Assembly: GCA_001584585.1 (NCBI GenBank)
Contig: LSYV01000022.1
Span: 361,058 to 425,057 of the forward strand
Origin: Gonium pectorale
Lineage: Eukaryota > Chlorophyta > Chlorophyceae > Chlamydomonadales > Volvocaceae
DNA: 64,000 nt
Direction of reading: 5' to 3'
Shown here: positions 4,278 through 51,900 of the stretch, piece by piece
Layout of the letters: each line of letters begins with the position of its first letter
Position numbering within the stretch: the first letter of the stretch is position 1
Position numbers and translations under genes: made by a program
Notes under the pieces: generated by a model
The model's input: the letters and a program-made list of their open reading frames with translations, nothing else
What the model was told of the DNA's origin: nothing
Database searches by the model: none

Positions 4278-7200
4278 TCAAAGGAAATGCGTCCTCGTGA
4301 TGGGCGCGATGTGCCGGTCCCGCGTCAGCAGCAGGCAATCGGCGCTGCTCAGGGCGACCCTTGGGTCGCCCGATGGGGGCGAGGGCAGCCGGGGCTGGCC
4401 GCTGAGGGTCCCAAGCAGCATGGCCCGCTGCTGCTTGCCGCTGCGCCTCCGGCTGGCGCCAGCAGACTCAGAGCACCAAAGGAACTGCGTGCAGCAGGGA
4501 TGCAGGGCGGGTGGCAGCAGGGCGGGAGTGCGCGCCCCGGTGGCATCAATCGGCATGGGGCGGGCCCGCCGTAGGTGAAGGCAGGCTCCACATGGGAAAA
4601 GTTGTGCCTGGGATGGGAGACAGGCATGCTTATAGCCTCTAAAATGCATGCTTCTCCAGCACGACTGCACGGTAGTGAAGCACCGGGGCCACCTCACGAT
4701 CATGCCCTGCCCTGTCCGCGCCAAACGGCAAGCACGCCGCTCCCTCACCGTCTCCATGCGCCCCTTGCCCTTGACTTCCACGCCGCCGGTGGGCGCCCAG
4801 CCCTCCTCGTCCTCCTCAGGCGGCAGGAGGCCGCGCGTGGTGGCGGAGATGTGCACTGCACCAGGGCGGCCCGTGCTCTCCTGCGGGCGTCACGGGGCGC
4901 AAGTACGGGTTCCACAGCTTCTGACCGTGCACGCGAGGACCCAAGGGTCGTAGAGCACGGTGTCATCAAGTATGGACTTATGCAGTCTCCCAGCGCCTTA
5001 GGGTACTCCTGGCGCATGGGGTTGCGGATGCATTCCGACAGCGAAGCGCAGGGAGCTCAAGACAGCTCATGGGCACATATATCCCGCGTAGCCCACGCAC
5101 CATTCGGCTCGCGGTGTTGATGGTGTCACCTGCGGGCAGCCAAGAGTTCAGGGCTTGGAGCGTCAGCATGAGCAGAGCCGCTTTGACCCTCCCGTTGTCT
5201 TCGCCATTCCCCGTCTCTCCAACTGTATCCTTTCCCATAGAAGAAAGGGACCACATTGGCCCGGTCAGACGCAGTGTGAGAGAGCCGGCGCACAGCAGCC
5301 CGCTCACCAAAGAGGCAGAACCTCGGCATCTTGGTGCCCACAACGCCGCTAGTCGCAGGGCCGCTGTGGATGCCGACTCGAAGCTGCAGGCATAAGGGTG
5401 CCAGGCCACAAGGAGCAGCATGGAGTTAGCTGCGGACGCTCAAAACTGCTGGTCATAAACGCGGGAACATTTTCGCATTGAGCTTGATTACCAGACCAAC
5501 CCACCGCCCTAACCCGCTCGCCCAACCGGCTCACGCTGTCTTACTCCGCCCCGGCCTCGACCGCTTGCTCTCGGTCCCGTCTCATCTATCCCATCCTTGC
5601 CCTTCCACCCTTCGCCCTCCGGATTGTGCCCAGTCCTTCCTCCCCTGCGCACCTTGACCGGCTCTCCCGTGTTTGGCATCGCCACCTTGGCCGCCTCCTC
5701 CAGCATGGCCCGCGCGAAGGCCACCACGCGCTGCGGCGCCATGGGGTCGATGTTGCCCTCACCCCGCACCGCGCGGCCGTAGCCGTCCCCGTCCCGCGCC
5801 ACCAGCCCCCCCGCCACCATGTAGCAATCGCCGATGGTCTCCACCTTGTACACGCCGTACACGTCGGTGAGGCTGGGGGACGGAACGGGGGCAGGCGCGG
5901 GAATGAGCACGGCAGAAACCGGTCAGGGATGGTCGAGCAGCAGAGGCAGGCCTGTGCGTGAGACTGCGCTGAGGGCCCCGCCGTCGTGTCTGCCGATCCT
6001 CTCCATGCCTCCATCCAACCCAGCCCACAGCCCTTCCAGTCTTCGCGCCCACCTGTCGAACCGCGTGTAGAGGTTGTTTAGGAACGTCATGACCACCGCT
6101 GCGGACACCTCCTTGGACATCTCGGTGAAGCCCTTGATGTCTGTGACATGAGAGGCGCGAGGCACTGGCGATAAGAGGTCAGGCGGGGCGGGGCGGAGGA
6201 GGCGGGGCACGAGGCGAGGCGAGGCCGCGCAAAGGAGGGCTGATTGCGGCATCGCATTGTGTTACCGCACCGCGGGCGGCCAATGTTAAGCCCACAGCAC
6301 AACTGCAAACGCCATATAAGCTGTGTACACGCCCGGGTTGCCGGTCAAGCGCACGGAAGCCGCACGCTCCCCGACCCACCCGCGAACAGCACAGTGACGC
6401 TCTCGTGGCTGGTGGCCAGGGTGGCGGGGTCCTGGCGGGGGAGGGATTTATAAGGGGGCGGGGATGCGTCAGGGAGAGCCCGAAGCACACTTCAATGAAC
6501 GAGCGGCTGAGAGCCGGTGCAGCCACGCATTCGACTCCGTGAGAGATGGCAAAGTGCGGAAGCTAAAGGGGGGGGGGCTACCGGATGGGACCCCGCGGCG
6601 CTGTGAGCAGGAGCGCCGCACCGAACCTCAACGCGGCGCCCCCCCGCTTACACCGCGCGCGCGGGTAGCCAGGCGCCTGAGTGCACCTGGATGTGCCGGA
6701 GCATCTGCAGGCCGGCGCGCGGGTCCGCGCCCGCCGCCTCCGCAGCCGCCTGCGCAGCTGCCTGCTGCCGGTGCCGCAGCGTCATGTGCCTCAGAACGTG
6801 CACGGGCAGGATGTCGGACAGCAGGCTGTGCTCCGCCTCCAGGGCAGCCACCAGCGCGCACTCGGCGCGGACCTGCGGCGCGGGGCGGGATAGGGGGTGC
6901 CGCGACGCAGTCCGCACCACGCCGGTGTCAGGGATCCCGTGCTGCGCCGTGCAACCAAGCAGGTGCTGGGCGGTGCAACCAAGCAGGTGCTGGGCGGTGC
7001 AACGGCACGACGATGGCACACACACGCATACAGGAGCGGGCGGGCAGCGCCCTAGGCCGCCAGAGTCGGCCCCGCAGATACAATGCGCGCACACGGCTGC
7101 CCCGCGTGCGCTACGCAAGAGCCCCCGCACATGCACAGCCGTGAAAGTTCGTTCTCCCTAACATGTGAGCGACCATACAGGCGAGTGCACCCATTCCCTT

Positions 7201-13659: not shown

Positions 13660-14650
13660 TCATGTCAATTACTTGCATAAGGCGGGGCAAGCCCGTGCAA
13701 CGCGCCCACACGGCACCATAGAAGTTCTACGTGGCCACGCGCCGTCTAGGTATGGGCGATATTGGATGAACAAATGCAAAGGACGATGCAAGTGCCCTTG
13801 CCGAAGACAATTACACAATTGTACGAACCCGTGCGTGCCGTGCGTATCTGATGTTGGGGCTCGACAATTCGACAAGAAGAGATCGATGATGGAGATATAC
13901 CTGGGTGAAGAGCGTGCGAGCGGGGTTTGCGCCTGGGAGAAAGGAACCCTGCGAGAGCCGAAACATTATCCAGGACGTAGTACCGACAGTGGGCATCGTC
14001 TAGGTACGCACTACCGCCATTTACACCGGGCAAAGGTTTACGTCATGCATGAAGTGTGGGCTTAATTGGCGTACCATGCTGTCGTGAGAACCGTGTCCTT
14101 GATGACCGTACTGGAATTTCAGTGCCACCCCAGAGCTCCCCACGAGAGCCCCCAGCGGGCTGCTATACCGCTTCTGCGCCCTTCAGGCCGCCGATGCTAG
14201 GGACTTCAATTAGCAGCATACAGCGTGGTTGCATTCACGGACAAAGTTCACCTTTGTTACACCGTGTTACATTGCAAAACAGACAGAACAAATCCGCTTC
14301 AACCCCACAACAATACGACAAGCTCCCCGCTACAACAGACATATGGATCTAGTCATTCATGGACAAGGTCCGCCAGCTCGAACACCATCACGCGCAGCCG
14401 ATGACACACGCTGCAGAGTTTCAAGGCTTTGGCTAGGCCGCCGTTGTGCCGGCCTTCTTGACTTGCCGCACATCCGGTTGGCATCAAAGCCAGGGCTATA
14501 CACACGTTGCAGGTGTCCATGGTTATGGCCCGGGCTGGCATTGCCAACGTGTGGCGCACCAACTCACGGACATGCCCGCGCGATGCCGCAATAGCCCCAT
14601 GCATCGTCTCGTCTAGGCGCATGTCATCGACACTGCAACCGTGCGCCGAC
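13660..14650. repeat. Diverged dispersed repeat, copy 1
   Basis: Aligns by eye, in blocks and in the same order, with 16440-18090. Matching blocks include CTGGGTGAAGA followed by GTGCGAGCGGGGTTT (about 13899-13928 and 16579-16613), GGCATCGTCTAGGTACG against GACATCGTCTAGGCACG (about 13992 and 16693), GAAGTGTGGGCT (about 14050 and 16753), AATACGACAAGCTC (about 14311 and 16957) and ACGGACATGCCCGCGCGATG (about 14568, against about 18025). No clear coding capacity. Probably an old transposable element copy. Confidence 0.6.
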
Positions 14651-16439: not shown

Positions 16440-18090
16440 TATGGGTTATGCGAGTTCCCATGAAATCAGAGGTGCGGTACGATCGTACGAACCTGACAGC
16501 GCATGCCGTGCGTGTCTAGTTTGGGCTCGGTATGACATACAGAAACCGATACTGATTCATGTAGCAATGCGACCGACACCTGGGTGAAGACTGAAGCGCG
16601 TGCGAGCGGGGTTTCGCACCTGGGAGAGAAGAACCCTGCTGCAAGGTAGAGCTGCACATCGTCTATGCACATACTGTTGACACTTCAATCGTGGACATCG
16701 TCTAGGCACGTTCCACTGATACTTCCACCGGGGAGAGTCGTATGTCACGCAGGAAGTGTGGGCTGTACGGTGCTACGGTACCGTGGAAACCGTCTTCCCT
16801 GCTGACCTGAAGTGCCCGCTGCACCCCCGGGCCGCTCCCCCCCCCCGGGCCGGGTTGAGCGCCTTCAAGTTGACATGAGCGGGCTGCGATACTGCTTCTG
16901 AGCACTTCAGGCCGCCATGTTACCTATCATATACCGTGTCAGTCAACAAATCCACAATAATACGACAAGCTCTCGGCTTCAGCCAACAAAAAATTATTGA
17001 CGGGGCCCAAACCAGATCAGCATCACACACGTCCAATGATCCGCGCTGCAAGGATTTGAGGCGTTGGCTAGCTAGGCCGAAGCTGCGCCGGCATTCGTAA
17101 ATGCCGGTTCATCCGACGCGCATCAATAACTAACCCCCAAGCCATGGCCCAACACACGATGCTGGGGTCCATGCCCAAAATACACACCTCGCACCGGTGG
17201 TGGGACATCACCCCTTCGAATCCCTCTGGAGCTGGGTCCTACCACGACGCCATCACTTTCGCGCTTACGCTCGTCGTATGCTTTTTCCCTTTTCAACACC
17301 TCGCGCCTACCCGCGGCCTCCGCCACGTGGTGGCCACTGGTGCGCAGGCAGGCGGGTGCAGCAGCAAACACTGACCCCAAACTCTACGTGAGCTCAGCCG
17401 AACAAACAGCGAGGGGGCTTGCAGCAGTCTAGTGGCCGCGCTGCACCGCATGCAGGCCCATACGCCCAGCATGCGCACGTGAAAATTTCGTTACTGCGAC
17501 TACGACCCAGCTCTCAGGTGACGCCTCCCATTGCAAACTTGCGCCTTTTTGCAACACAGAGCTGCTGCTTTACCGCGGCAGCAGCTAATCAGCCTCAGAC
17601 TCTACGCCTCCGTCCGTTGGGCAACTCGCACAGTGCCATGCGACACAATGGCGGATCAAACATGAGTGCGACACGAGTACGATGTACGATGGCTCCAATG
17701 GTTGCGGCGGCTTCACTCGTCATTAGCCGGAAAGAAGCGGCTCCTCATGCGGGTGTGCTGAAACGGTTGCGTTGCCGTACGTGCGTTGAGTTGACCTCAC
17801 ATCCACAACCATCAGTCCGCTGCAAGTCCCATTGTGCTTTATGCGGCGAGTGCAGCCAGCCCGGTGCAACCTGCCTCCCAATCGCTCCCGTCCCAATTGC
17901 CCCGTGCACCGCGCCAGCCTAGCCACAATCCTGACGGCTGGCGACCACCCACGCCCATCCTCCCTGGATGTGCGGCAACCTGGTTTAACCCGGGCTGACA
18001 TACCACCGTGCGAGGCACCGACACACGGACATACCCGCGCGCAATGCCGCAGTAGCCCCATGCATAGACGCGCGGCCAAAAGTACGAAAA
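16440..18090. repeat. Diverged dispersed repeat, copy 2, interrupted
   Basis: Same element as 13660-14650, in the same orientation. The first part (to about 17100) follows copy 1 block by block. The last matching block (a CACGGACATACCCGCGCGCAATGCCGCA stretch in two parts, then AGTAGCCCCATGCAT) appears only at about 18020-18065, so about 0.9 kb of unrelated DNA, including the short repeat at 17201-17299, sits inside this copy. Confidence 0.55.
17201..17299 (+). repeat. Short dispersed repeat (SINE-like), copy 1
   Basis: One of four copies of an element of about 100 bp. Read on this strand it runs GGGACATCACCCCTTCGAAT, then GAGCTGGGTCCTACCACGAC, then CATCACTTTCGCGCTTACGC, and ends in a T-rich tail before CAACACC. 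CCTTCGAATCCC resembles a tRNA B box (GGTTCGAATCC), so a tRNA-derived SINE is possible. Other copies: 26066-26130, 53732-53830 and 61134-61231. Confidence 0.65.
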
Positions 18091-18181: not shown

Positions 18182-21100
18182 CTACTCCTGCTTTGTCGTG
18201 GCGTCGGCGGCGCGCCGGTGTTGGCGCTGTTGGTGCCGGCTGAAGCAGAGCCGCATGTACATGTGGCAAACCACGGTGGTCAGGACGCCGACCACCCACG
18301 TGCGGAGCGCGGCGAAGGCCGCGAAGGAGACGGTGGCGCCGCAGGTGTGCAGCATACATGCGGTTGAGACGCAAAGCAGCGCCAGCGCAACGCAGGCCAC
18401 TGGCGTGGGCAGCTGCGAGGGCCATAATCACCACAAGACGGGGCGGGCCGCCGGCGTCCGTCAGTTTTCGGTACCGGGATGCCGGGAGGGGGCCCAACTG
18501 GGTTCGACGAGCCCACACACGCGGCTCACGGTCAGTACGGTTTCTGTGCAGAGCCGCGTGGCGGTGCGCATGACCCGCTATCGAAGGGCCGCCAGACCCC
18601 CTCCCCGAGGGCAGACCCCCTCCCCCTCCCCGAGGCAGCGGACGCGACGGGGGAGACTCACCAGGGATGCGCCCGGCACGAGGACTCCCTCCATCACAAC
18701 TAGGCCGATGCCCGTCGCGTAGGGCACTACGCCAGGCGGCGGTGGGAAGCCGAGGAACGCCACCATGCACTTGGTTGCCGAGTAGAAGACAAAGCGCGGA
18801 AAACGGTAGGCGTTCACCAGGCGCGCCCAGGAGGCGCGCGACAAGAAGGGCTGAGCCATCATTGTGAGCGCGCCGCCGCAGCAGGCCGTGAGGGCCGTCA
18901 TGTTGCTGGGCGCCAGCAGGTCGCTGCGGGTGCGGAAGAGCAGCGCCACCAGGCTCAGCAAGTCCATCCAAAGCCTGCGGGGCGGGGCGCAGGAGCGGGA
19001 GGGGAGGAGGAGGGGTAGTGGGTTGGAAGGCATGTTCAGTACAGAAGCCCTGGGGCGCATTCCTCTCCCAACCGTCGAAACAACCGGCTGAGCGCTGAGG
19101 GTGGAAGGGAGGGGTCGGGATAGGATTCCGACGTCCCATCTCCCGGCGGTCCGTCGCATTCATGTACCACCATGGCCGGGGTTGTGTAACGGGATTATAA
19201 GACCGTACAAGCCGATTCCTTGCTGACTGGTTGCTCACGCCCGCCGCCCGCCCAGTCCGTCGACCCGAAAGAAGCACCCGACCCGAAAGCAGGGAGTGCT
19301 AAGGGCAACGCGGAAAAGGGCCCGGTCCTAAGGGGCGGCGGTGGCGCATGCCTCGCCAGTCATGGAAGGGTCCGCGAAGGGGCTGTTGTCATTGTTGGAG
19401 AGGAGGAGGGGCGGGATCTCTCAGTGTGTGGCTACGAGTTGTGAGGACAGATGCAATAGACAGGGAGCGAGGGTGTGCGCGATGCTCTGCGCACACCCTC
19501 GCTCCCTGTCTGCTGCACCCTCGCACTGGTTCGTCACAAGGCCACTGGCAGCCGCAAAAGTTGCGGGACTTGAGATGCATCGATTCAAGCATACAAGTGT
19601 TGTACTCCCACATGCAAACAAGGGCACGTGGCATTGTCATGCGCTGGTGGTAGAAGGGTGCTCCCTTGGAAGCGTGTCGGGCGCCGGAGGTCAAGAGGGC
19701 GACAGATGCACCCACGGTGCTCGTGCACCACACCCAAATAAAATTCGCCGCCACTCACAGGAAACGGCCCTGGTTAAAGACCCACGAGTCGGCGTACTCC
19801 TGGAACGCAGCCTCATCGTCCGGCACGGCGCGGCGCCCTTGGCCGGCCAGCAGCAGCAGCGCCAGCAGCCTGTGGCCGCCGTCGCCGCTCCCCACGCTCT
19901 CAGCAGCCTGCAGACACCGAAAGTCACCGCCGTCGCCGCTGCTGCCGCCTGCGTCGGGAGCGGCGCCATCGCGTGTAGCAACACCGGCAGCCGCCACCGG
20001 TGGCGCCGACTCTGCCTGCGCGGCCCGGGCCTCGACCGCCGCGCAGTGGCAGCCATCGGCGGTGGGAGCTGTATCCTGGTCCTGTGCTGCGCGCATATCT
20101 GCTCCTGTTCCCGCACCCGCCGCGGGCGCAGCCTGCGCTTGCGCAGGCCGGGCTCCCGGCCGCGGCAAAGCTGCCGCCCGCACCGCGGCCCACGGCGGCG
20201 CGGCCGCCCCCGGCCCCTCGGCCCCCGCATGCAGAGCGGCCATCAGCTGGCGCATGTGGGCGGCCGTGTGGACCCAATTGCACGCAATGACGTAGCGGAG
20301 GAGGTGGGTGCCCAGGGAGAACAGCCGGGAAAAGGAGATGGCGTCCAGTGACGCGGTCAGAGGCGCAGCCTCCCCTCCCAACCCTGCGCCCGCTCCCGCA
20401 ACCGCCGCCGCCGTTGGGCCCATCACCGCCGTCGAGTGAAACTCGAAAGTGCCGAAGTCAATGAGGAACTCGTCCAGCTCGTTCTGCGCGCGCGGCCAGT
20501 CGGCGATGGCTATCTGCAGCTCGGCTGCGACCGCGGTCGGCCGTCAGCAGAGCGGCACGGTGCGCATGCGCATGCCAGCGGAAGTCGACCTGTGGCGAAG
20601 GGGCGCCTTGCCGCTTAGCAATTGAGCCCGTCGCAAGCGCCTGTCCCAGCGCACGAACACCTTACGGCACGCGCCAGGACGTGCAACTGGAAGCGAATGA
20701 GGAAGAGGGCGCACCCGGGGAACACCGGCGCACCGTCCTCACAAAGCTGGGTGTCCCGGGAGGCCCAGCTTGCGACCCCTCGCGTGCTACCCAGGCTGAA
20801 CCCGCGTGTGATACTGACAAGGCCGTGGGCTTACCAGGGCAAGGCCGGGGCGCGACGGCACCTCCAACAGCTCAAGGTCCAACAGCTGCGGCAGGTTAAC
20901 ATCTGGGCGGGCCGCCACGTCCGTCACAGGCCCCGCGCGCGAGCCGGGCGCCAAACGCAGCTCCGCCTCTGCCTCCATCTCAACCTCGGCCACATGGCTG
21001 GGACCCGGAACCGCTGCTGCGGGCCCCATGCGCGTCCACCGCGCCCGCACGGGGACGTAACGGCTGTGGCTCCGGACCAGCACCTCCAGGGGTGAAGGCG

Positions 21101-23035: not shown

Positions 23036-24789
23036 TACGTATGCATCAAGCGTAATGCGCCCCTGAGCGCCAAACCGCAGGGCTAAAGTTCCCGGAGGAC
23101 TTCACACTGAGCCCTTCTGCATTCCCTAGAGTGTGCTCGTTCTTATTTTTAGCTGTGTAGGATGAGGATAGTCGGTAGAGAGCGATTTGGCATGTACGGC
23201 ATGTACGGCATCGGATTTCGTGACAAACCTTTTTGGTGCCGGGCCCCCCCCTCGCGTCCTCTGCCTCCATAACATCCGCATCCAACCTATCAACCATCTC
23301 ATTCGGCCCCGCCCTGAAAGGAGCAACTGCTCCGAACACCTAACCCTGGGCCCCAACCCCCACACCTAACGTCGCCATGAGCTCGACACAGCGCGCCTCG
23401 CGGCCGACCAGCATAGAGGCAGGTCTAACAGAAGCATAATAATGTATTCGTCTCGGAGTTGCCAACCAGAGCACCGCAGTCTAGGTGGCACGAGTCACTC
23501 GTGACCTCTGCAATACTCAGGCCATGGGCAGGGCCAGGCAGGAGGAGCTTTAGGGAGTCGATCTGGCTGCTGTGCTCATGGGTTCAAAGACCCACACGCT
23601 CCAGGCAGACGGCGATGGGCGGCAGTCGGGCCCTGAGCGCGCTGGGCGCCACAGGTGGCAGGCCGCGGGACAGGTAGCTGGGGGGCTGGAACATGCATAC
23701 ACACACCCGCTCGGTAGCTGGGTGGCGAGCCTCTATATTGCGCGGCCCGTGTGCGGTTTTTCTCATGCCCTGCCATGACCCCCCGAAATGGCACCAGGCC
23801 CGTGCGCTGGGGCCGTGGCTGGCGCAAAACAGGTGGGACTAGCAGGGCAGCCCTGGCAGCCACATGTGGCTCTGGGCGGCTGCCAACTGCAGGGATTCAA
23901 CGTCTGCGCCACCTCAACCGCTCAAGGGCATGTAAGTANNNNNNNNNNNNNNNNNNNNCCCCGACCCCCCAAAAGGACTATCTATCACTATCTTTGGAAG
24001 GACCATACAGCGGGGCTTGGGCTTCGGGCCGCCGCCCGGGTACGGTGCACAGGCGGTTGCTCGTTATCCCAGGTCGTTGTCAGTTTGCTGTTAATCTTTG
24101 GCAATCCTAATAGTGAACAGTATGCAAAGTGTCCGCTTTCGCTGCAATGAGGGCGCTGTGCAGAAACCGGTCCTCCCTTGCAGCGGGCGAGCGTGGCTCC
24201 CGAGCGCTCGCGTTTCCAGCGTCGCAGCTAAGGCCATGTAGATCGACAGCAAATCCTTCTAGGTCCACAATATTGAGCTTGCCGAGCAGAAGCGCAGGAG
24301 GCGTGCAATGCGAGCGGAGGCGGAGACTCATCGCTCGCACTTCTGCACACTGGTGGTGAGGCGCTGTGGCTGGTGGTCGATTCCCAATAGCATAGTGATT
24401 TTTGTCGGGGGTACTGAGCGCGCCAATCGATGCCCACCATCCACCCTCCCCGAAACCTCCCACGCCGCTAAACCCGTGAGACGGGCGCATGATGCCATTT
24501 CGGTGTTGCCTCATCCCTGATTGCACCCGACCCCCACCCCCAGAGTGCCCTCGTGATGTGTTTAGCCGCCTCCGCAATCTGGGGCCCCACCACAATCCTC
24601 ACCCCGCCCTCCCTCCATCGCCTACACCCCTCGGCGCTTCGTATCATGCTCCCCTGCCCATCCTCGTCGCAAACCCACATCCAATTGGGCCATGAAGACC
24701 CGTCTCGTCCTTCGCGAGCATCGCCGCGCCGACCACGCCTCCCCCACCCCGTCGCCCCGACCCATGACTCCCTCCCCACATCCCCGCCC
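23036..24789. other. Interval with assembly gap; possible small exon
   Basis: Separates the minus-strand gene starting at 23035 from the + strand gene to its right, so it should hold both promoters. A possible + strand exon of 39 bases (reading GFNVCATSTAQGH) lies between an acceptor-like CTGCAG and a strong donor GTAAGT, right against the gap. It could be a 5' exon of the gene at 24790-27218 but cannot be joined across the Ns. Confidence 0.35.
23939..23958. other. Assembly gap (20 N)
   Basis: Twenty Ns, the same length as the other gap in this window, so probably a fixed-size placeholder rather than a measured distance. Confidence 0.99.
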
Positions 24790-27218
24790 CCTTCGCCGGT
24801 GCTTGTCCCAAGGGAGGACGAGGAGGAGTTCGACGCTCTGACGGAGCTGGTCGTGCCGAAGCGGCTGCATGTGGCGGTGGTGGCCCCCTCGCAGCAGGCG
24901 GCGGACCAGGCCGGAGCAGCCGCCTGGGCTGCAGCCTCGGAGGGGGCCGAGGGCGCCATGATGGCAGCTGCAGGCGGCAAGTTCGCCACGGGGTTCTCGT
25001 CGTCGCGGGTACGGGCCGTTCCGGCGGGGCGTCTGCTGCAGTATGCCGAGCGTGTGTGTGGATGCAACGGGTTGGCTCGCGTCAGGGATGTAGCCCCGGT
25101 GTAGGTCGTGCGCTCTTGCCGGCACGTTGCTGCTCCTGCTGAAGAATCGCCCGGGCAGCGCACCTGATGACGCACGTGACTACAGCTGTCAATCACCGCA
25201 GCTGGGCGCGGTAGTACTGTAGTGTAAGGTCCTCCACTCCGTTCTACGCGTTGGGCACGGATCCCGCCTCCCGCCTCCTGCGTGGTGCCCTTGATACGCC
25301 AGCCATGTTGATCCTTCAGGTTTACCCGCGTGCAATGCCCCCAACCTCCATGTGTGCAATGCCGCCGGCGGTGCCGGCGCCGCCGGCGTTCCCATCCCCG
25401 TCCCCGCCCTCATCATCTCCCATGCCCATGCCCATACCCATGCCCATGCCCATGCCCATGCCCGTGCCCATACCCATGCCCATGCCCGTGCCCATGCCCA
25501 TGCAGAGCAAGCCGGAGGCGGAGGCGCTCTGGCAGCGCCTGCGGCAGGACGGGCCGCCGTTCTTCAAGAAGATTCGCACACGTTCCGCACTTGACACCCT
25601 TGAGGTTAGCCCCCTACCCCCCGACTGGCCCCTGCACCGGTCTGTTGCGCTGCCCTGGGGGTCGGGGCTACCGGATAGAAACGAACACAGACGAGCAGGA
25701 GGTTTGGCTCCGCGTATAGGACCGTGCAGGAGGGCAGGAGGGCGTGCGGGGGGGGCCTGCAGAAAGGGGAGGCGGGGACGGTGGGAGGCCGGGAGGAAGG
25801 GGAAGCGGGCTTTGCAGCCCCGCATGGCGCTGCATGGTGCACACATACAACGCAGCTGGCAATCAGAGTGCAATTGAAGAGGTTCCACACACGCGGTCCG
25901 CACCGGACATCCGTGGGGCGGGCCGGGCCCTCGCGCGCGCCTCTGTGGCGGCGCCACGCGGGGCCCCTGCCGCCCGTCCGCCTGGGAGCCCACCGGGCCG
26001 CTGTGCCTCGTGCGCGTCACGGGCGTTGCAAGTGCACAGGTAGCACCGAAGGCGCAGCTGTGGACGTGTTGAAATGGAACGACGAGCGTAAGCGCGAACG
26101 TGATGGTGTTGTTGTAGGACCCAGCTCCAGCTGTGGACGTGTGGACGTGCATCCTATCGTGAAACTTGGGCCCAGCGGTCCCCCTCAGCTCCGGCAGCAG
26201 CCACACGGACATTTGCGGCATGGCCTCTTTTGCACCCAGCCAGCGCAAGGCGTCACAGAGCACCTCCTGTGGCACACATACGCTACCCCTTACCTGGCTA
26301 ACATCCCGTGCCCGCAAACACGGCCTCCACAAATTCGCGCCACCATACCGTATCCTCTGCCGCCAGGACCCCGCCGCCGATGCCGCGCGCGCCAGCTCCG
26401 CTGCGGAGGAGCTGTGGCGGGAGCTGTGCGGCCAGACGTGGCGGGTGGAGCTGGACTACGGGCTGGCTGGGTCAGAGGAGCCGCGGGACGACTTGTTGCT
26501 TGCGGTCAGCGGGTGGGTGCTGGGCGGGGTGGGGCGGCGGCGAGGGCGGGGACGCATGGGGGTGTGGAACGCAGCCGGCGCCGAGCGGCACGTTGGACAG
26601 GGCAGCGTGTGGTCCGGTCTTTGGCGCAGTTCTGTGTAGGGTGGGGAACTGTGAGTGCAGGCGCTTAAAACGATGGCGGGAGGGGCGGGGGAGGGAAGGT
26701 GGTGTGGTTTTGTGCAAGGGAGGTGTGCTTTGGGGGGCCCCTCGCAGGTGGTTGCGTGCGAGCCGCGGGGCAAAAGGACCTCGGGGTGGCGAGACAGGGG
26801 TGGGAACGCAACAGCGCATAGTGATAGTAGCGGAGATGGGGAAGCAGACCTGCGCCCTCGTGCCGGCGCAGGCGGCTTTAGGCAATTTGTGGTTTCGGGC
26901 TTCGCCATATTCCACAAATAGAAGCCGCGTTGTCATGTCCATACATCCACACGACACTGAATGCACAATCCACCCGTGCGCGCGGCCCTGCCCGTGCTGC
27001 CCGTCTTTGCTGCCTCGCGCCGTAGGCTGGCGGCCACGCGGCTCTTGTCGCATGCCGACTTGGCGGCAGAAGACGCGGCCCGCCGTGGCGGCTACACGCT
27101 CGTGGAGGTGCCCGGGTACAACGCGTCAGAGCAGGGCGGCGAGCCGCTGCGCAGCTGGCGGCAGCTGCAGCCCCGGCTCCTTGCGACCCACGGGTCGGGG
27201 ACGACCGTCGCGGCGTGA
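24790..27218 (+). CDS. Unrecognised protein with (Pro-Met)n tract, 5' incomplete
   Basis: Four phase-compatible exons: about 24790-25008, 25320-25604, 26367-26512 and 27026-27218, ending in TGA. The first reads an acidic start then LTELVVPKRLHVAVVAPSQQ, suggesting a beta strand in a folded domain. The second has a Pro/Met/Val/Ile repeat, then a charged helix (QSKPEAEALWQRLRQDG). The third reads SSAAEELWRELCGQTWRVEL. The last ends RRGGYTLVEVPGYNASEQ before a short tail. The last two exons faintly recall the end of a RAP domain, as in organelle RNA-binding OPR proteins, but key features are not clear and I do not assign it. The start codon and upstream exons are unknown and may lie across the gap. 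Head to head with the membrane-protein gene at 23035 and tail to tail with the ACBP gene. Confidence 0.5.
25422..25504. repeat. CCCATG-type hexanucleotide repeat in an exon
   Basis: CCCATG units with some CCCATA and CCCGTG variants run for about 80 bases and encode alternating Pro with Met, Ile or Val. The repeat stays in frame in the exon 25320-25604. Confidence 0.9.
26066..26130 (-). repeat. Short dispersed repeat (SINE-like), copy 2, truncated
   Basis: Minus-strand copy of the element at 17201-17299. It matches through the T-rich tail, the CGCTTACGCTCGTCG block and GGAGCTGGGTCCTAC, then stops before the B-box-like part. It lies antisense in the intron 25605-26366 of the + strand gene. Confidence 0.6.
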
Positions 27219-43700: not shown

Positions 43701-46700
43701 GGGGTGTGCCGTATTTAGTGTGGGGCAACGCGGGGGGCGGGGGCGGAAGGGAGGGGCAAGGAGGAGTGATGCGCGGGGGACGGCAAGGGACGGGGAGGGC
43801 GGCGCGGGCCGGTGTGGTCGGCGGAGTAAGCTGACGAGGGGTGCTGGTGTGTTGCACGTTCGGGTGCGTTGCGCTGATGGACAGAGCGGAACCAGCAAAT
43901 GCACCTCCGCCGCTCTGCTGCCCACGCCGTCGCTCCCTCTCCGCCCCGACCCAGCCCCTCCTACTGCCCTTCCGCAACCCCCGCCCAGCAACGTCCTCAA
44001 ACGCGCATCGGCTCGGAGTCTGGTGGTGCACCCGGCGGCAGCTTGCTCGGAGGACCCAGCGGCAAGCGCGGCGCGGCGCGGCCGCCGGGCCTCTACACAG
44101 TAACCACCACCACGTCCAGCTCCGGCGCCGTCGCGCACTCGTCCTCGACCTTCATCGACACGCCCAGTCCCTACCCACCCTCTCTGGCGCATCCCGACAC
44201 GCCGCGACGGGGCAGGGCCAGCGCCAGCGCGCAGGTGGTGACGGGCGCGCCCCAATCCCGCTCCTGCTCGGGCTCGCTGCCGGGTCAGGGCCAGAGCCAG
44301 GAGCGGGAGCAGGACCGCCCCAGCGGTGACTCGCCGCCGGCTTTTGCACGCGTTTCAGCCCCCCTGGTGCCCCTGCCTGGCCCTCCGTCGCTGGCGCCTG
44401 CTACCGCACCCGGGCACGGGGCGGGACACAGCCAGCCCGCCGTCTGCGTCCGGAGCCACTCGAGCAACCTGCCGTCGAACACCAACGTGATGGCTGGCAG
44501 CGGCGCCGGCAGCGCCGCTGTGTCGCGGACGCGGCTGGTGCACGCGCACTCCACCCCTAGCAGCCGGACCACGACTTACCTCCAGCACACCAGCCAGGAT
44601 CACGGCCGGCGGCTCCACTCGGTGCTGCGCGCGCTTGTCCACACCGCCAACAGTAGCGGCGCCGCGCCCTCCTCCTCCGCCACAGTCGCGTCGGCATCGC
44701 TGGCGGCGGCGGCTGGCGCTGCCACCGCTGCCGCGGCGGCGCTGGGCTACAGCGCAGCGGGCAACTCCCAGTCCTTCGCCAACAGCGCCGCCGCCAACTC
44801 GGCGGGCCGTGGCGGCGGCAGCGGCGTCCCCAACTGGAGCGACGGCCAGCTTCGCCACGTGCAGACGCTGGCTGGCGGCCGCAACAGCGCCTCCTCCGCC
44901 GCGGGCAGGAGCACCGCTGATCAGGTGGTATCCGGGCCGCTGGGGCGCCAACTAGCTGGCGGAGGCGGGAGCAGCGCTGCTTGCGGAGGCGGCGTCGGCT
45001 TCTTGGCGCCGGCGGCGGGATCGTTGCCTCTGCGACCGCTGCGGCTGCGCAGCGGCGCGTTGGTGGACCCCGACCTGGATTGCCGCTGGCACGAGGTGAT
45101 CGTAAAGCCGTGCTTCGACCCGATGAACAGCCAGCCGCTGGTCATGGTCATCCAGACGGACGTCACCAGCAAGGTGCGTGCATGCGTGTAACGAGCGGCA
45201 GTGAGCCGCGCGGGGTTCTGCCCGGCCCGGATGCTGGGACGCCGCGGGCCACTCTAGCTGGCTGCGCCTACGTGCTCTCCCCCGCTCCGCCTCGTCATTC
45301 GGGGACGCGGCCAACGCTGCTGGCGCCCAGCCCGTTGATATCCACACCCTGGTCCGCACACTTTCCGCCTCGCGGACGCCGGAAACCTTATCTGTTCTCT
45401 CGCGTTGGGTTGTCCGCCGGACGTGAAGCGGACGGCATGCGCCTCGGGCTTCTCCAGTGACCACGCTTGTCAACCCCATGTGACGCACCCCCATAGGGAG
45501 AAGGCAAAGCCCGTTATCGTCACACCTTGCTGTCAGATTTCCCGTCCTGCAGGCTCCGCGTCGCGTGTTCCCAAAGACCTCATCCAATCGTGCACGCTTC
45601 TCTGGTGAGAGTTCGTTCCAAGCCCTTGACCAACTCGTCCCGCTCCGCAGGTTCGCGCCGAGGTGGAGCTGGCTCAGGTGCTGGAGGCGGAGCACCGCCT
45701 GCTGGCCGACATCTTCCCCCGCCACGTGGTTGCCCAGATGACGCAGCGCCGCAAGGACGAGGCGCAGTTGGAGCGGCACGGTCTCATGATGCTCAAGAGC
45801 ATACAGGTAAGGCGGGTTTGTTACGTATGCGTGATGAAGTGCAGAAAGGGTCGTAGGGGTAGCTAGCAGGGGCATCCAGGGAAGGAGGGTGTGTGTTTTG
45901 GGGTTGTGTTGGGCTCAGCGGGGCCCGGGCCCGAGGGCGAGCACGGAAGGTTGCTTACCGTTTGTAGGTTGCAGGTTGCCAGCTGCAAGCTGCTGCCGTT
46001 TAGGACGCTGCTGCAGGCCTGTAGGCCTGTAGGCCTGTATGCCACGGCGGACGGTACCTTCGGCCGGTGTGTGATGTTGAGTTGGTGACTGTTGCGTTTC
46101 TGTGAAGGAGGGTTGCCACCTCGCAACCCCGACTCCTAATGAATCCCTCCCCCGCCAGGACCCCGCCACCCTGGCCACCAGCCACGAGAGCGTCACAGTG
46201 CTGTTCGCGGGTGGGTCGGGGAGCGTGCGGCTTCCGTGCGCTTGACCGGCGGCGGGGCGTGTATCCAGCTTACATGGCGTTTGCAGTTGTGAGGTGGACT
46301 CAACGTTGGCCGTCTGCGGTGCGGTAACGCGGTGTGATGCCGCAATCAGCCCTCCTTTGCGTGGCCTCGCCTCGCCTCGTGCCCCGCCTCCTCCGCCCGC
46401 GCCCCGCCTGACCTCTCATCGCCAGTGCCTCGCGCCTCTCATGTCACAGACATCAAGGGCTTCACCGAGATGTCCAAGGAGGTGTCCGCAGCGGTGGTCA
46501 TGACGTTCCTAAACAACCTCTACACGCGGTTCGACAGGTGGGCGCGGCGGAAGGAAGGGCTGCGGGCTGGGTTGGAAGTAGGCATGGAGAGGATACGAGG
46601 CACGACGGCGGGGCCCTCAGCGCAGTCTCACGCACAGGCCTGCCTCTGCTGCTCGAGCATCCCTGACCGGTTTCTGCCGTACTCATACCCGTGCCTGCCC

Positions 46701-48913
46701 CCGTTTCGTCCCCCAGCCTCACCGACGTATACGGCGTGTACAAGGTGGAGACCATCGGCGACTGCTACATGGTGGCGGGGGGGCTGGTGGCGCGGGACGG
46801 GGACGGCTACGGCCGCGCGGTGCGGGGTGAGGGCAACATCGACCCCATGGCGCCGCAGCGCGTGGTGGCCTTCGCGCGGGCCATGCTGGAGGAGGCGGCC
46901 AAGGTGGCGCTGCCAAACACGGGAGAGCCGGTCAAGGTAGGCCGTGGGCGAGAGAAAACTGGGCGTGTGGAGCGGTGGGGCGGCCGGTGCGGAGCCGTCC
47001 CCCGTCTGTGCCCGCAGCGTCGGTCCGCGCTGGCACGCGCCCGGCGGCGCGCGCAGTTCGGCCATGCCCATGCCCATACGGTGCAGCGTACACCATCCTT
47101 TGGAAGCTCTGCCTTGGTAACCGTCCCAAACCAGGAGGGGGTCGGCTCCTCGTGAGCTCCGCCACGCCCTGCTTGCGTCGCAAAGGCGTAAGATCGCAGA
47201 ATGGCGCGACAATTTTGTCGGCGGGCGACATCCGTACCGCTGCCGCCTCGCCCGCAGGTGCGCGTGGGCATCCACAGCGGCCCTGTCGTCAGCGGCGTTG
47301 TGGGGACCAAGATGCCGAGGTTCTGCCTTTTCGGTGAGCGCGCGGCGTTGGGGCGGGGTTTGTGTGGTCGTGTGTAGGAATCTGGGCGCTCGGGGGCGCC
47401 AAGCGGCCAATGTGCTGTGCATGCCGCCGTGCCGTTGACCTACCAGTGGCGTGCCCATGCCTCATTATTGGCGTTTCAAGAAACAAGCCGTTCGGGTCCT
47501 CTCCTTTCCCCTGCCCTCCGGCCGCAGGCGACACGATTAACACTGCCAGTCGCATGGTGGGTGGTGGGCCTTAGGGTGGGGTCGGGCGGGGCAGCATAAA
47601 GGGCCGAGGGGTCAGGCTATCCGGCACCTGGCGGAGGGAGGGCTCCCGTTTCGGCCGTTGCGCTTCGGCGGTTGCGCAGCCGGTCCTGGCGCTTACCCTC
47701 TCCCGCCTGTCCGATCATCCGCCGTCGGGGCGGAGGTGGCCGGCAAGCTAGCCAGGCTACGTGTGCGGACTCGCTGCAGAGTCGCTTCAGGGGTGCCCCA
47801 TGTCTTGCTAGACCCACCGGTCACTAAACGCATTCACCCCACCGGGCGATGGGCTATGTGGACGCCAGCCGCCTCTCATTGCCTGTCCATCTTGCAGTGG
47901 TGGGTGCCTCGCCATGGCCCCAGCTGCATGCCGTATCCTTACGCTCTCCCCGGCCTCACGCGCCACGCATGCTGCACGTGCCTGCGTCGCCCGCAGGAGA
48001 GCATCTCGGTTACCGGCCCCTTGAGCTCTCTGAGCTTCCCTGCGGATTGCTGTCGCACCCGTAAGTGCCCCTCCATGACACGCGCAGGAGAGCACGGGCC
48101 GCCCCGGCGCAGTGCACATCTCCGCCACCACGCGCGGCCTACTGCCTCCCGAGGAGGAGGATCAGGGCTGGGTGCCCACCGGTGGCGTTGAGGTCAAGGG
48201 CAAGGGGCGCATGGACACGGTGAGGGGGCGGCGTGCGCAGCGCAGGCGGTACCTGTCAGGGGTTTCCGCAGGGGTATACGCTTGGCAGGGATAGGACCGA
48301 TGCGTTAGGGACTTCGGTTATGTGAGCACGGCCATTCGGGCGACAGTGGCTCTGGCCCCGTGACCACGCCCACGCTCGGGACTGTGGCGTGGTTTGAACA
48401 TGTAGCTGCGCCAATTGCAGGTTGATCTTGCGGTAACGGGCTGGGCTGGGCTGGGGAGGGACGCAAACCTCTTCGCTTCCAAGCCCCCCTGCTTGTTCTG
48501 CCCCGCTGGCCGTTCCGCGCCCGTACGGCCGCCTTGCGCTCCCATGCTTCCTTGCCCTCACGCTCGGCGCCCCGCACCCCCGCCACCACCCGCCACCACG
48601 CCACCACCCGCGCCCCCCCCCCCGCCCCCAACCGCCACCACGCCATCACCCGCCACTGCGCCCCCAACCGCCCGCGCTGCAGTTCATGTGGTGCCCCCAG
48701 ACACCCGACGCGGGCCGGCAGCGGCGCGACAAGCAGCGCCAAGCCATGTTGCTGGGCACGCTGAGTACTTTGTTGCCCGCCTCGAGCTCGGTGTCGCCGC
48801 CCGCGTCCGGTTGGGGCAGGCGGACGGGCGGGCCGCCGTCCGGGTCGGTGCCCGCCGCCGCGGGGCGAGCTGCGACATCCTCCACCTTCGACGCCACGAC
48901 CACCATGCTCTGA
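37777..48913 (+). CDS. PAS-PAS guanylyl cyclase, copy B (5' end incomplete)
   Basis: Predicted to make cGMP. Exons: 37777-38084, 38420-38493, 38842-38926, 39212-39465, 39687-40092, 40393-41710, 42126-42262, 42694-42774, 43989-45173, 45651-45806, 46159-46210, 46450-46537, 46717-46936, 47258-47333, 47528-47556, 48088-48219, 48683-48913; stop TGA at 48911-48913. The first PAS reads [20 protein letters not shown] through [19 protein letters not shown]. The second opens at [20 protein letters not shown] and closes at [19 protein letters not shown], split by a low-complexity insert of several hundred residues. A linker helix ([20 protein letters not shown]) leads to the catalytic domain, with [23 protein letters not shown] and RFCLFGD/INTASRM: both metal Asp residues, guanine-selecting Glu and Cys, and Asn/Arg are present. 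The coding part shown is about 1,610 residues; no start ATG was found. Inverted paralogue of 4278-13464. Confidence 0.92.
42849..43625. repeat. Three-copy tandem repeat of about 280-350 bp in a cyclase B intron
   Basis: The block CCTAGCCGGCAGCCC (third copy CCTGGCCGGCAGCCC) recurs at about 42850, 43202 and 43480. Each is followed by a related stretch ending in GCTGGGCTGGG- or TTGACCTCCAGAC-like sequence. The units have diverged and also carry GTGTGTGTGT runs. They make this intron (42775-43988) about 1.2 kb long. Confidence 0.7.
43018..43141. repeat. Perfect 22-bp inverted repeat with 80-nt loop
   Basis: Arms 43018-43039 and 43120-43141 are exact reverse complements (CACACACCTGCGGACGGGGA plus GC). 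They lie within the intron 42775-43988 of cyclase B, inside the tandem-repeat region, and could form a long-loop hairpin in the primary transcript. Confidence 0.85.
46012..46041. repeat. 8-bp tandem repeat (GCCTGTAG)n
   Basis: About three and a half units of GCCTGTAG in the cyclase B intron 45807-46158. Confidence 0.8.
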
Positions 48914-51900
48914 GCCCACCGGAGAGGTGCCGTGGGGGAGCGGACTCATGTGCTTGCCCAAGAACGGCGCAACATGGCGCAGCGCCTCGACGCCAACAGC
49001 GCCGTGTTGCATCATAATGGATGTACATGGGCCAGTGCCCCGTACGGCGCACGTTCATCCGTCTCTTGGGGCGGTTGACGGCATGCTTGGGCCGGCTGGG
49101 GCCGACTTGTGCAATAATGATCGCGACGACGAGCAGCTGCGGCAGCTTGTGTGACTGTCAAAAGAAGCATCGAGCCTGATGTGCACCGCCCGTATCGCGT
49201 GCGGGCGCCGTGGCATGCTGTTGGCTGGTCGTGCTATCGGGCGGCTGCGCAGGGCGGCATGCGGTTGCGTGGATAGCGATGAATGCCTTGTGATGACGCG
49301 GACAGTTGTCTGCCGCTCAAGCAGGGATGCGGGATGCAAAGCGGGACGATGGCAGGGAGATGGCGAACGTGGGAATTTTCAATCTGAATTCAAGCTGCGC
49401 CCCAACGGCGACGGTGGTGGGAAGTGGAGATTTGGGTGTGAATGCTGGGCGGGGGTCGCGCGATCCGGGGACTCACAGGCGGTGAGGGTTGAAGCCAGGG
49501 GAGATGGCCGATTGAAGCCATCGTCGCCTCCTGAAGTCCTGGGGGAGATCCCGTCGGAAAAGTGATAATCATGGCGTCTGGGGAAACCTGTTAGATTCTG
49601 ATTGCACAGGTGAGACTGTAGTCCGTGAGGTTGGGTCCCGCGCCCTATGCTGCGTTCTCGGGGAGGAGGCACGGGGAGGAGGTGACTGTGCACACCACGA
49701 GATGCGTTGCGCGGGGCACGTGCAGCGGCGCGTGCTGCCGGTACGGGATGCACACCGAATGGGGCACCGAATGCGCGCGGGATTGCTGCCTTGTGCGTGC
49801 ATTACGCCGAATCTTCCAAATTTGACCCGATTTTTGCCTGCTGCGTGTTTATGTGTATGTGTTGTGGCCGCCTCGCGTATGCCATGCGGCGCCGCGCTGT
49901 GCGCCTCGGGATCCTGGTCTGTGATACCGGGGCTTGCGACGGGGGCCGTGTTCGCTTGTGTTTGGGCCGCCCACATGTTCCCTCTGTTGTGTTTACCGGT
50001 TTGCTGACAGCAGCGGGGCCGCTGTCGTCGTCACGAAGCTTTACAAGAACAGCGGCAGCCCGACTGACTGCCGTAGTGCTGGCATGGTGCACGCTGAGGC
50101 ATCATTCGGTTCTGATATGTTTTATACGTAGACCCGAAAACGCAGGGCTCGGGAGAAACGCCCCTTTGGGGCACGATCGGGTGCCTACCCCCGCGGCCCC
50201 CTGATCTGCACTTCACCCTGATTTGTGCTAGGCGGCCGGTCCACTGACCGGCGTCATTGAACTGCGTACGCGATGGCCCGGCTGCACCCAGCAGGCTCCC
50301 CGACGCCCGACGCGGCGGCCGGTCACGTTTGGCGGCGGCCCGTAACCCGCACTGCACGCGCCCCTGTTGTACTGAGTTAGTATTGATTCCGCTAATTGTT
50401 GCGTCGCAACATTGCTGCAGCTGCGGCGCGAAGATGGCAGCGCACTGTTGACTTGACACCGTGATTGGTGCGGACTTCTCCGGTGTGCCGGGTGCCGGGT
50501 GCATGGGGTCCCGCGAGCTTCGCCGTTGCTCTTGCAGCGCGTCGAGCGGGCAGCTCCTTGTGGCACGCCACGAGGGCCACCACCTGGGGCGTCACCTGGA
50601 CCTGTCTAATTGAGGACCAGCTGCAAGGCGCAAAGCCGTTTTAATGAGCACCGCGGCGAGTGTTTTCGGATAGGAGTGCCGCCAGCCTTTGCAGTCGCGA
50701 CCCCCCATCTGTATGTAAAACGTTGCCTGGTCGTCTGGAGATCCTTGCAGCTTTTGAGTGGTTGCCCCGCTGCATCGCAATTTTGTGCCCTGGCGGCAGC
50801 ATGGTGGACTGGCGTTGGCGTCGGTGCTTTTGGGGGCGAGTAGCGCCCGCTCGTTGTCTCTCGGTTCGTATTCGTCTTCGTTGTGATTTTTAAGGGGGAG
50901 GAGCGGATGCGGGAAGGGACTTAACCTGCCCGCGGCCTCCGGTCCTTGCAAACGGCAGTCTGCACAGCGGGTTCTGATGCCGGGAGAACTCCAAGGAGGG
51001 TGTCTTCGGATTCTTGTTCCCCCAGTTCTGCCTGCCTGCGGCTCCGGCGCGTTTGCCCTCACAGGCGTGGGAGAGGTCCATAGCAGCACGGGCTTGACAG
51101 CAGTACTGAAATGGATGCGGGCCGATGCAAACACGAGAGCTCCTGGTATGGATTATGGCGTAGCAAAGAGCATGGGGATGGCCTCAATAGGTTGCGGTTG
51201 CGGTGGGCCATGGATGCTGTGACGGAGTTGGGTGGGTTCAGGCTACCCGTCTTATGCTGCGGCCGTCGCGTTAGGGCGTTTGTGCGCTGCAGCCAAGTGG
51301 CGGGGGCGAGTCGGGCAGTGCCCTCTTGAGGGATGTCCGAACGCTGCTGCTGTGTGCCTGTTGTATCGGCAGTCGGCGAGCTGCCTGTCGGGCGCGGCGG
51401 ACTGAGCTGCTGCCCCACGCCGCCCCGGGAGGGCGATGCATGCATATTGGTGGGCTACTCTGTTATCAAATGGACACGCCCTGACACAAAAGGTTGTAAA
51501 CCGCAGGTGGGGAGCCACACCTTCGGGCGTGTATGGCCGTAGAGGCGGGCTCCCTCTTTCTGTGCAGGTTTCTCTTTTTTCACACCTGTACGGACAAAAA
51601 CACACGCAGCGNNNNNNNNNNNNNNNNNNNNTCCCCGTTTCTGGTTTCTTTTTTAGTGGCGTGCCGTGGCGTGGGTGCATCCGGGAGGGCTTGGGAGGGG
51701 CCAGATCGTCAACCACTCCCAAGGTGCCCCATACCCCAGCCTCAGGCGCCATCCAAAAGTGGGCTGTGGGCACCCCGTGCCGGAGCCGTACGGCCGTACA
51801 GTGCAACAGGCCAACAGGACGACGCGGCAGCGCTTCCCATGGGCACACAGTACCAAATCACAAAATATGATTTCAGGCTTCTAGGTAGACGAGCAAGAAC

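Follow-up and report, generated by a model that had tools for sequence, protein, structure and literature searches.

Two genes for class III nucleotide cyclases, here called A and B, lie as inverted neighbors about 40 kb apart in a 64,000-nt stretch of the Gonium pectorale genome (the window; contig C22, positions 361058–425057, in a searched genome of 128.9 Mb and 352 contigs), and they raise the question of why a single segment of their catalytic core, introns included, is alike in both genes when the introns on either side of it are not. Throughout, C-numbers denote contigs, L-numbers fetched cyclase loci, and P-numbers protein records. Gene A, on the minus strand, corresponds to GPECTOR_21g633 (P0121, a record of 502 residues), which it matches at 100% over a 420-residue query, and gene B, on the plus strand, to GPECTOR_21g638 (P0002), with 99.6% identity over 284 residues. 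Pfam profiles place the PF00211 class III nucleotide cyclase domain in both proteins (E 4.4e-54 in A and 9.3e-55 in B). Class III cyclases act as dimers. The region upstream of the core in A and B is presumably PAS, a label that we use for it here, and Pfam reported no PAS there. Gaps of 20 Ns occur at 23939–23958 and 51612–51631; because the first sits between A and B, both the inversion of the two genes and the distance between them hinge on the scaffolding.

Self-BLAST of the window revealed one long A–B block, in which 5651–6468 (minus strand, gene A) aligns with 46122–46938 (plus strand, gene B) over 819 columns at 94.261% identity (E 0.0), with 44 substitutions and 3 gap columns. The remaining A–B blocks are short (188 bp at 87.8%, 98 bp at 86.7%, and 113 bp at 74.3%). 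The original prediction had matched 6455–5653 to approximately 46135–46936; this core is borne out, but the block continues into the upstream intron for another 13 bases, at lower identity. Base-level alignment shows that the tract opens about 37 bases upstream of exon E1 and closes at the junction of exon E3 with its intron, that alignment is lost abruptly on both sides, and that only diverged exons align beyond. The introns bordering the tract (255 and 352 bases upstream and 269 and 321 downstream, in A and B, respectively) fail to align, as had been claimed. A genome search with the tract returned at least 40 scored matches, of which two, A and B themselves, were full length and the others were partial and no more than 95% identical; these match counts are lower bounds.

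Within the tract, exons and introns pair from end to end. The 3′ end of the upstream intron differs at 5 of 37 aligned positions, followed by exon E1 (DPATLATSHESVTVLFA; A 6380–6431, B 46159–46210; 1/52), where the A model matches P0121 at 100%; intron 1, of 239 bases in both genes (A 6141–6379, B 46211–46449; 19/238); exon E2 (A 6053–6140, B 46450–46537; 0/88); intron 2, of 180 and 179 bases (A 5873–6052, B 46538–46716; 16/179); and exon E3, which is unsplit in both genes (A 5653–5872, B 46717–46936; 3/220). The original prediction had intron 1 aligning along its length and intron 2 sharing long identical runs; both pairs align from end to end here. The tract introns are alike rather than nearly identical, with 35 differences in 417 positions (8.4%) compared with 4 in 360 (1.1%) for the tract exons.

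The tract exons are also nearly identical at silent sites, with 3.0 synonymous differences in 88.7 sites by the Nei–Gojobori method, compared with 40.4 in 105 for the flanking exons Em1, E4, E5, and E6. In these flanks the in-frame segments compared were Em1 upstream (A 6687–6872, B 45651–45806; 16.2/39.2 silent differences) and, downstream, the RVGIHSGP exon E4 (A 5309–5383, B 47258–47332; 8.0/18.8), the DTINTASRM exon E5 (A 5101–5129, B 47528–47556; 6.0 differences at 5.8 estimated sites), and E6 (A 4725–4880, B 48088–48243; 10.2/41.2), the E6 segments running a few codons beyond the splice site implied by P0121. Fourfold sites show the same arrangement, with 2 differences in 70 in the tract, 20 in 48 in the upstream exons (Fisher p 1e-7), and 17 in 49 downstream (p 3e-6), and none of 20,000 random orderings gave a window with so few fourfold differences (permutation p 5e-5). 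Silent divergence thus changes about tenfold at both tract edges, in a step with no gradient. The silent differences in the flanks, the near identity of the tract exons, and the step were all anticipated correctly.

We consider it very probable that interlocus gene conversion put the catalytic-core DNA of one gene, about 0.8 kb of it, over that of the other, with B the more likely recipient. The best-surviving alternative, that one copy was patched with the sequence of the other during assembly or that a repeat was collapsed, is very unlikely. In its favor are the 20-N gaps noted above and the way the assembly was made: the window appears to come from that of K3-F3-4, for which 454 and MiSeq reads were combined with end sequences of fosmids and BACs (PMC4844696). 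A patch or collapse, however, would not create the 44 substitutions and 3 gap columns by which the copies differ, and a similar protein pattern is found in two other species, in one of which, Volvox reticuliferus, the pair comes from female and male assemblies, judged by the protein names.

To place A and B among their relatives, the nearest sequences were taken from two protein searches (best 120 hits each), and trees of 12 sequences were built from 539 upstream flank columns, 102 tract columns, and 76 columns of E4–E6. In the flank tree, where the A and B entries are concatenated translated pieces rather than complete gene models, B groups with its orthologs from V. reticuliferus (10317), Volvox africanus (3375), and Edaphochlamys (2551) at SH-aLRT/UFBoot 89.7/90, and by identity in PAS–Em1 it stands close to its Astrephomene ortholog (10364; 66/84). 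Because B clusters in its flank with its counterparts in other genera, the duplication predates the exchange, and since exon order and intron positions are common on both sides of the tract and the divergence there is old, A and B were already homologous before it. In this reading, A and B are old paralogs in the class III cyclase family of G. pectorale. The same observations bear on the duplication or transposition of a catalytic cassette, and on a recent whole-gene duplication with fast-diverging flanks: A and B have homologous, collinear flanks on either side of the tract, with common intron positions and old silent divergence, and the B flank has its relatives in other genera, so that we regard such an explanation as extremely improbable here, although in an inverted pair on C14 almost no flank DNA aligns and insertion is harder to exclude there. 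A reciprocal double exchange rather than one-way conversion seems equally improbable. Its intermediate would not be visible from present-day sequences alone, but a swap would leave two different segments, and near identity would then require the loss of one version.

For one-way conversion, exon E1 offers a hint of the direction. The motif DPA-x-V is present in all four of the other B orthologs, whereas Gonium B reads DPATL, and the diagnostic L is found in 12 of 12 aligned non-B sequences, Gonium A included. Because Gonium B has L where the other B orthologs have V, B probably received the tract from A, the putative donor, a polarity given by one E1 residue. A comparison of silent sites in A and B with paralogs on C81 and C17 was uninformative as to direction, since many of those differences approach saturation and rates vary between regions.

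In the tract, the protein trees pair paralogs of the same species, in Gonium (98.1/99), V. reticuliferus (93.4/87), and, with modest support, Edaphochlamys (77.4/67). Tract columns reject the topology that unites the B orthologs (AU 5e-7), and flank columns reject the topology with all same-species pairs (AU 0.001). When each pair is tested singly on the flank, AU rejects that of Gonium (0.0018) and that of V. reticuliferus (3e-9); for Edaphochlamys, AU rejects the pair (0.014) and SH does not (0.129). The tract columns reject a clade of Gonium B and the Volvox B orthologs (KH 0.0001; the AU value of 7e-76 is too extreme for literal use), and they reject a grouping of the two Volvox B orthologs marginally, by AU (0.048) but not by KH (0.096) or SH (0.36). 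In E4–E6 the B-ortholog grouping is rejected as well (AU 0.003, SH 0.014), the all-pairs topology is marginal (AU 0.041, SH 0.36), and the protein tree pairs Gonium A and B despite their diverged silent sites. The rejection of the B grouping in E4–E6 indicates that the protein conflict extends beyond the Gonium DNA tract; it may reflect older exchanges over E4–E6 or the weak signal of a 76-column alignment.

Protein identities give the same picture region by region. Gonium A and B share 45/84 residues in PAS–Em1, 18/18 in E1, 101/102 in E2–E3, and 69/76 in E4–E6; the corresponding values are 44/82, 13/18, 101/102, and 69/76 for V. reticuliferus 1176 and 10317, and 38/77, 16/18, 102/102, and 74/75 for Edaphochlamys 2553 and 2551. 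Between genera, B orthologs are 81–92% identical in E2–E3, and the two Volvox B orthologs share 97/102 residues (95%). Thus, at the protein level, paralogs within a species are more alike in E2–E3 than orthologs between species in three lineages, which suggests that the same kind of copying took place separately in other green algae. The borders of homogenization differ between lineages, as expected from separate events. The B core was probably homogenized with another paralog of the same species in both Edaphochlamys debaryana and V. reticuliferus, and such events probably recur. In E2–E3, V. reticuliferus 1176 and V. africanus 3375 have 98/102 residues in common; some of the Volvox homogenization may thus predate the split of these two species, and the sequences give marginal support to a V. 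reticuliferus event after its separation from V. africanus. A candidate A ortholog in V. africanus, Vafri_21023, was dropped, as it resembles the C81 type by eye. The locus tags of Edaphochlamys 2553 and 2551 differ by two and their contigs are equally long, which suggests that they are neighbors; 2553 is weakly placed in the tree (37.3/56), and this non-B partner may thus not be a strict A ortholog. Across species, the orthology of the non-B partner has weak support. These parallels, together with some of the other Gonium clusters described below, run counter to the uniqueness of the copy event that the original prediction implied.

Strong selection on exons and intronic elements since the original duplication, for which one could cite family-wide conservation of the catalytic core and a silent divergence to the C81 paralogs of about 0.33–0.37 in tract exons against 0.48–0.59 in flanks, is rejected as practically negligible in probability, since adjacent introns of the same genes are unalignable, tract silent divergence between A and B is 0.034, tenfold below that to C81, and same-species paralogs are 99–100% identical in the core, above B orthologs across genera and within Volvox.

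The original prediction was of a recent copy event. Localized copying remains the simplest reading, but recency does not: with an intron divergence of 8.4%, the tract is not very recent, and its differences are clustered, lying in the intron cores and the first 20 tract bases, with identical runs of up to 147 columns. The densest window has p 0.003 for the whole tract, 0.008 for intron 1, and 0.047 for intron 2, and the longest run has p 0.006, 0.14, and 0.03, respectively, where the whole-tract tests pool exons with introns. Such clustering would be explained if shorter conversions had later refreshed parts of an older one, and the sequences hint at this. As proof of two events the clustered differences were rejected; they are suggestive only, and clustered mutations could produce the same arrangement.

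Conversion of this kind may proceed as follows. The catalytic exons would be the main DNA homology islands between old paralogs. Strand invasion would start in these conserved exons, repair synthesis between two homology islands would copy the introns between them as well, and the tract would end where homology allows, with repair completed without crossover. Because these exons are the main homology islands, invasion would both start and end in them, yielding domain-shaped tracts without selection. The core would in this way evolve in concert as the remaining gene diverged. For mammalian gene pairs, Carson and Scherer raise the possibility of selection that keeps pairing domains alike (PMC2720389, in the part drawn on here), and by analogy such selection in the Gonium cyclases is an added possibility.

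Other cyclase clusters of Gonium were compared in the same manner. Besides A and B, 25 cyclase loci were picked from 105 matches for lying mostly in pairs or clusters, and all 351 pairs were compared. HSPs of at least 100 bp and at least 92% identity link 14 same-cluster pairs (5 of the 7 inverted ones and 9 of the 13 direct ones), and after an orientation filter they link 4 of the remaining 331 pairs (5 HSPs unfiltered, 2 of them between distant C10 loci). Local duplication alone predicts similarity within clusters, so this count does not by itself show conversion. Indeed, L031/L032 on C50 and L018/L019 on C87 align over kilobases at about 81–90%; these are plain recent duplicates and fall outside the 14 pairs. 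More informative are clusters with isolated blocks, and some other same-contig clusters do show step-edged identity in the catalytic core. The inverted C14 pair, about 51 kb apart, shares a single block of 750 bp (95.3%) that contains an intron; the block begins at the LATSH motif and stops close to the apparent end of the catalytic exon. Beyond the block, protein matches in the correct orientation are 23.5%, 47%, and 76% identical over 336, 34, and 21 residues. In the C63 trio, core exons are mostly 92–100% identical per 50-column bin and adjoining introns about 55–79%, and these exons look homogenized without the intron. The inverted C3 pair (299 bp at 99.7% and 181 bp at 97.8%) shows a similar pattern but abuts an assembly gap and was not used as an argument, though it is among the 14 pairs counted.

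Short blocks, apparently exons, reach 95–99% identity among L022, L023, and L024 (C63), L025/L026 (C10), L027/L028 (C19), and L032/L033 (C50); lying beside stretches that barely align, they suggest exon-limited conversion tracts. Gene structure also varies in the family: in L009, L011, L012, and L013 (C81 and C17), E3 aligns as two pieces with the break after GDCYMV, and E4–E5 is contiguous, whereas E4 and E5 are separated in A and B. In L015, two adjoining 81-residue parts of P0015 (GPECTOR_2g1209) match the same 243 bases (3264–3022) beside an assembly gap, which may point to a mistake in annotation or assembly.

Domain-limited concerted evolution is a known kind of process, here found in an algal cyclase family. 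The following comparisons draw on parts of the cited reports. In methanogens, ancient mtrA paralogs have undergone convergent conversion limited to one domain (PMC4632066); mtrA-1 and mtrA-2, like Gonium A and B, have distinct accessory domains and a shared domain homogenized convergently in separate lineages; they are archaeal operon genes, whereas A and B are nuclear, inverted, and about 40 kb apart, with introns in the tract. Recurrent concerted evolution is described more widely in prokaryotes (PMC6053082). The mammalian pairs BMP8A/B, DDX19A/B, and TUBG1/2 (PMC2720389) resemble the Gonium genes in the long-lasting concerted evolution of specific segments and in the use of intron similarity as an argument against purifying selection, but are not cyclases. 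Among cyclases, conversion has been described in the transmembrane adenylyl cyclase family of Trichomonas, with one direct case and indirect evidence for the cyclase domain (PMC2914791); unlike the Gonium genes, these are intronless and include many pseudogenes, and the part of that report drawn on here mentions no parallel events between orthologous pairs. Among volvocine algae, conversion has been invoked for low divergence of mating-locus gametologs in Chlamydomonas and considered for Gonium (PMC4856071), although gametologs belong to different mating haplotypes and A and B are paralogs on one scaffold. Conversion among algal cyclases was not reported in the titles and abstract openings searched, a set from which subscription journals were mostly absent.

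The A–B tract is a clean natural case, as the edges of the conversion can be located to within tens of bases, with the introns serving as a near-neutral marker. In addition, because the B core was apparently homogenized in separate algal lineages, one can ask whether homology islands alone, or selection for a uniform pairing domain, account for it. It is conceivable, though we hold it doubtful, that the volvocine cyclase core is a shared, repeatedly overwritten cassette, subject to ectopic conversion between neighboring, often inverted paralogs in parallel across lineages, perhaps favored by pairing of the catalytic domains, with the rest of each gene diversifying freely. The findings also carry a warning: catalytic-domain trees of algal cyclases can show species-specific duplications that never happened. 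Among the database proteins, the cyclase region of gene A matches three separate parts of P0001, a 2111-residue protein of Tetrabaena socialis, which possibly represents fused neighboring genes.

Several repeats lie elsewhere in the window. A dispersed repeat occurs at 17202–17299, 26079–26130, 53747–53830, and 61134–61232; a 99-base query from 61134 found at least 40 further full-length genome matches at 95–96% among 42 reported, a lower bound given that 40 of 1167 candidates were scored, and two copies on C10 are only 139 bases apart. Short collinear direct similarities of 70–90% link 13906–14604 with 16592–18065, perhaps an old tandem duplication. Finally, the 66 bases at 19452–19517 are 84.8% identical to their own reverse complement.
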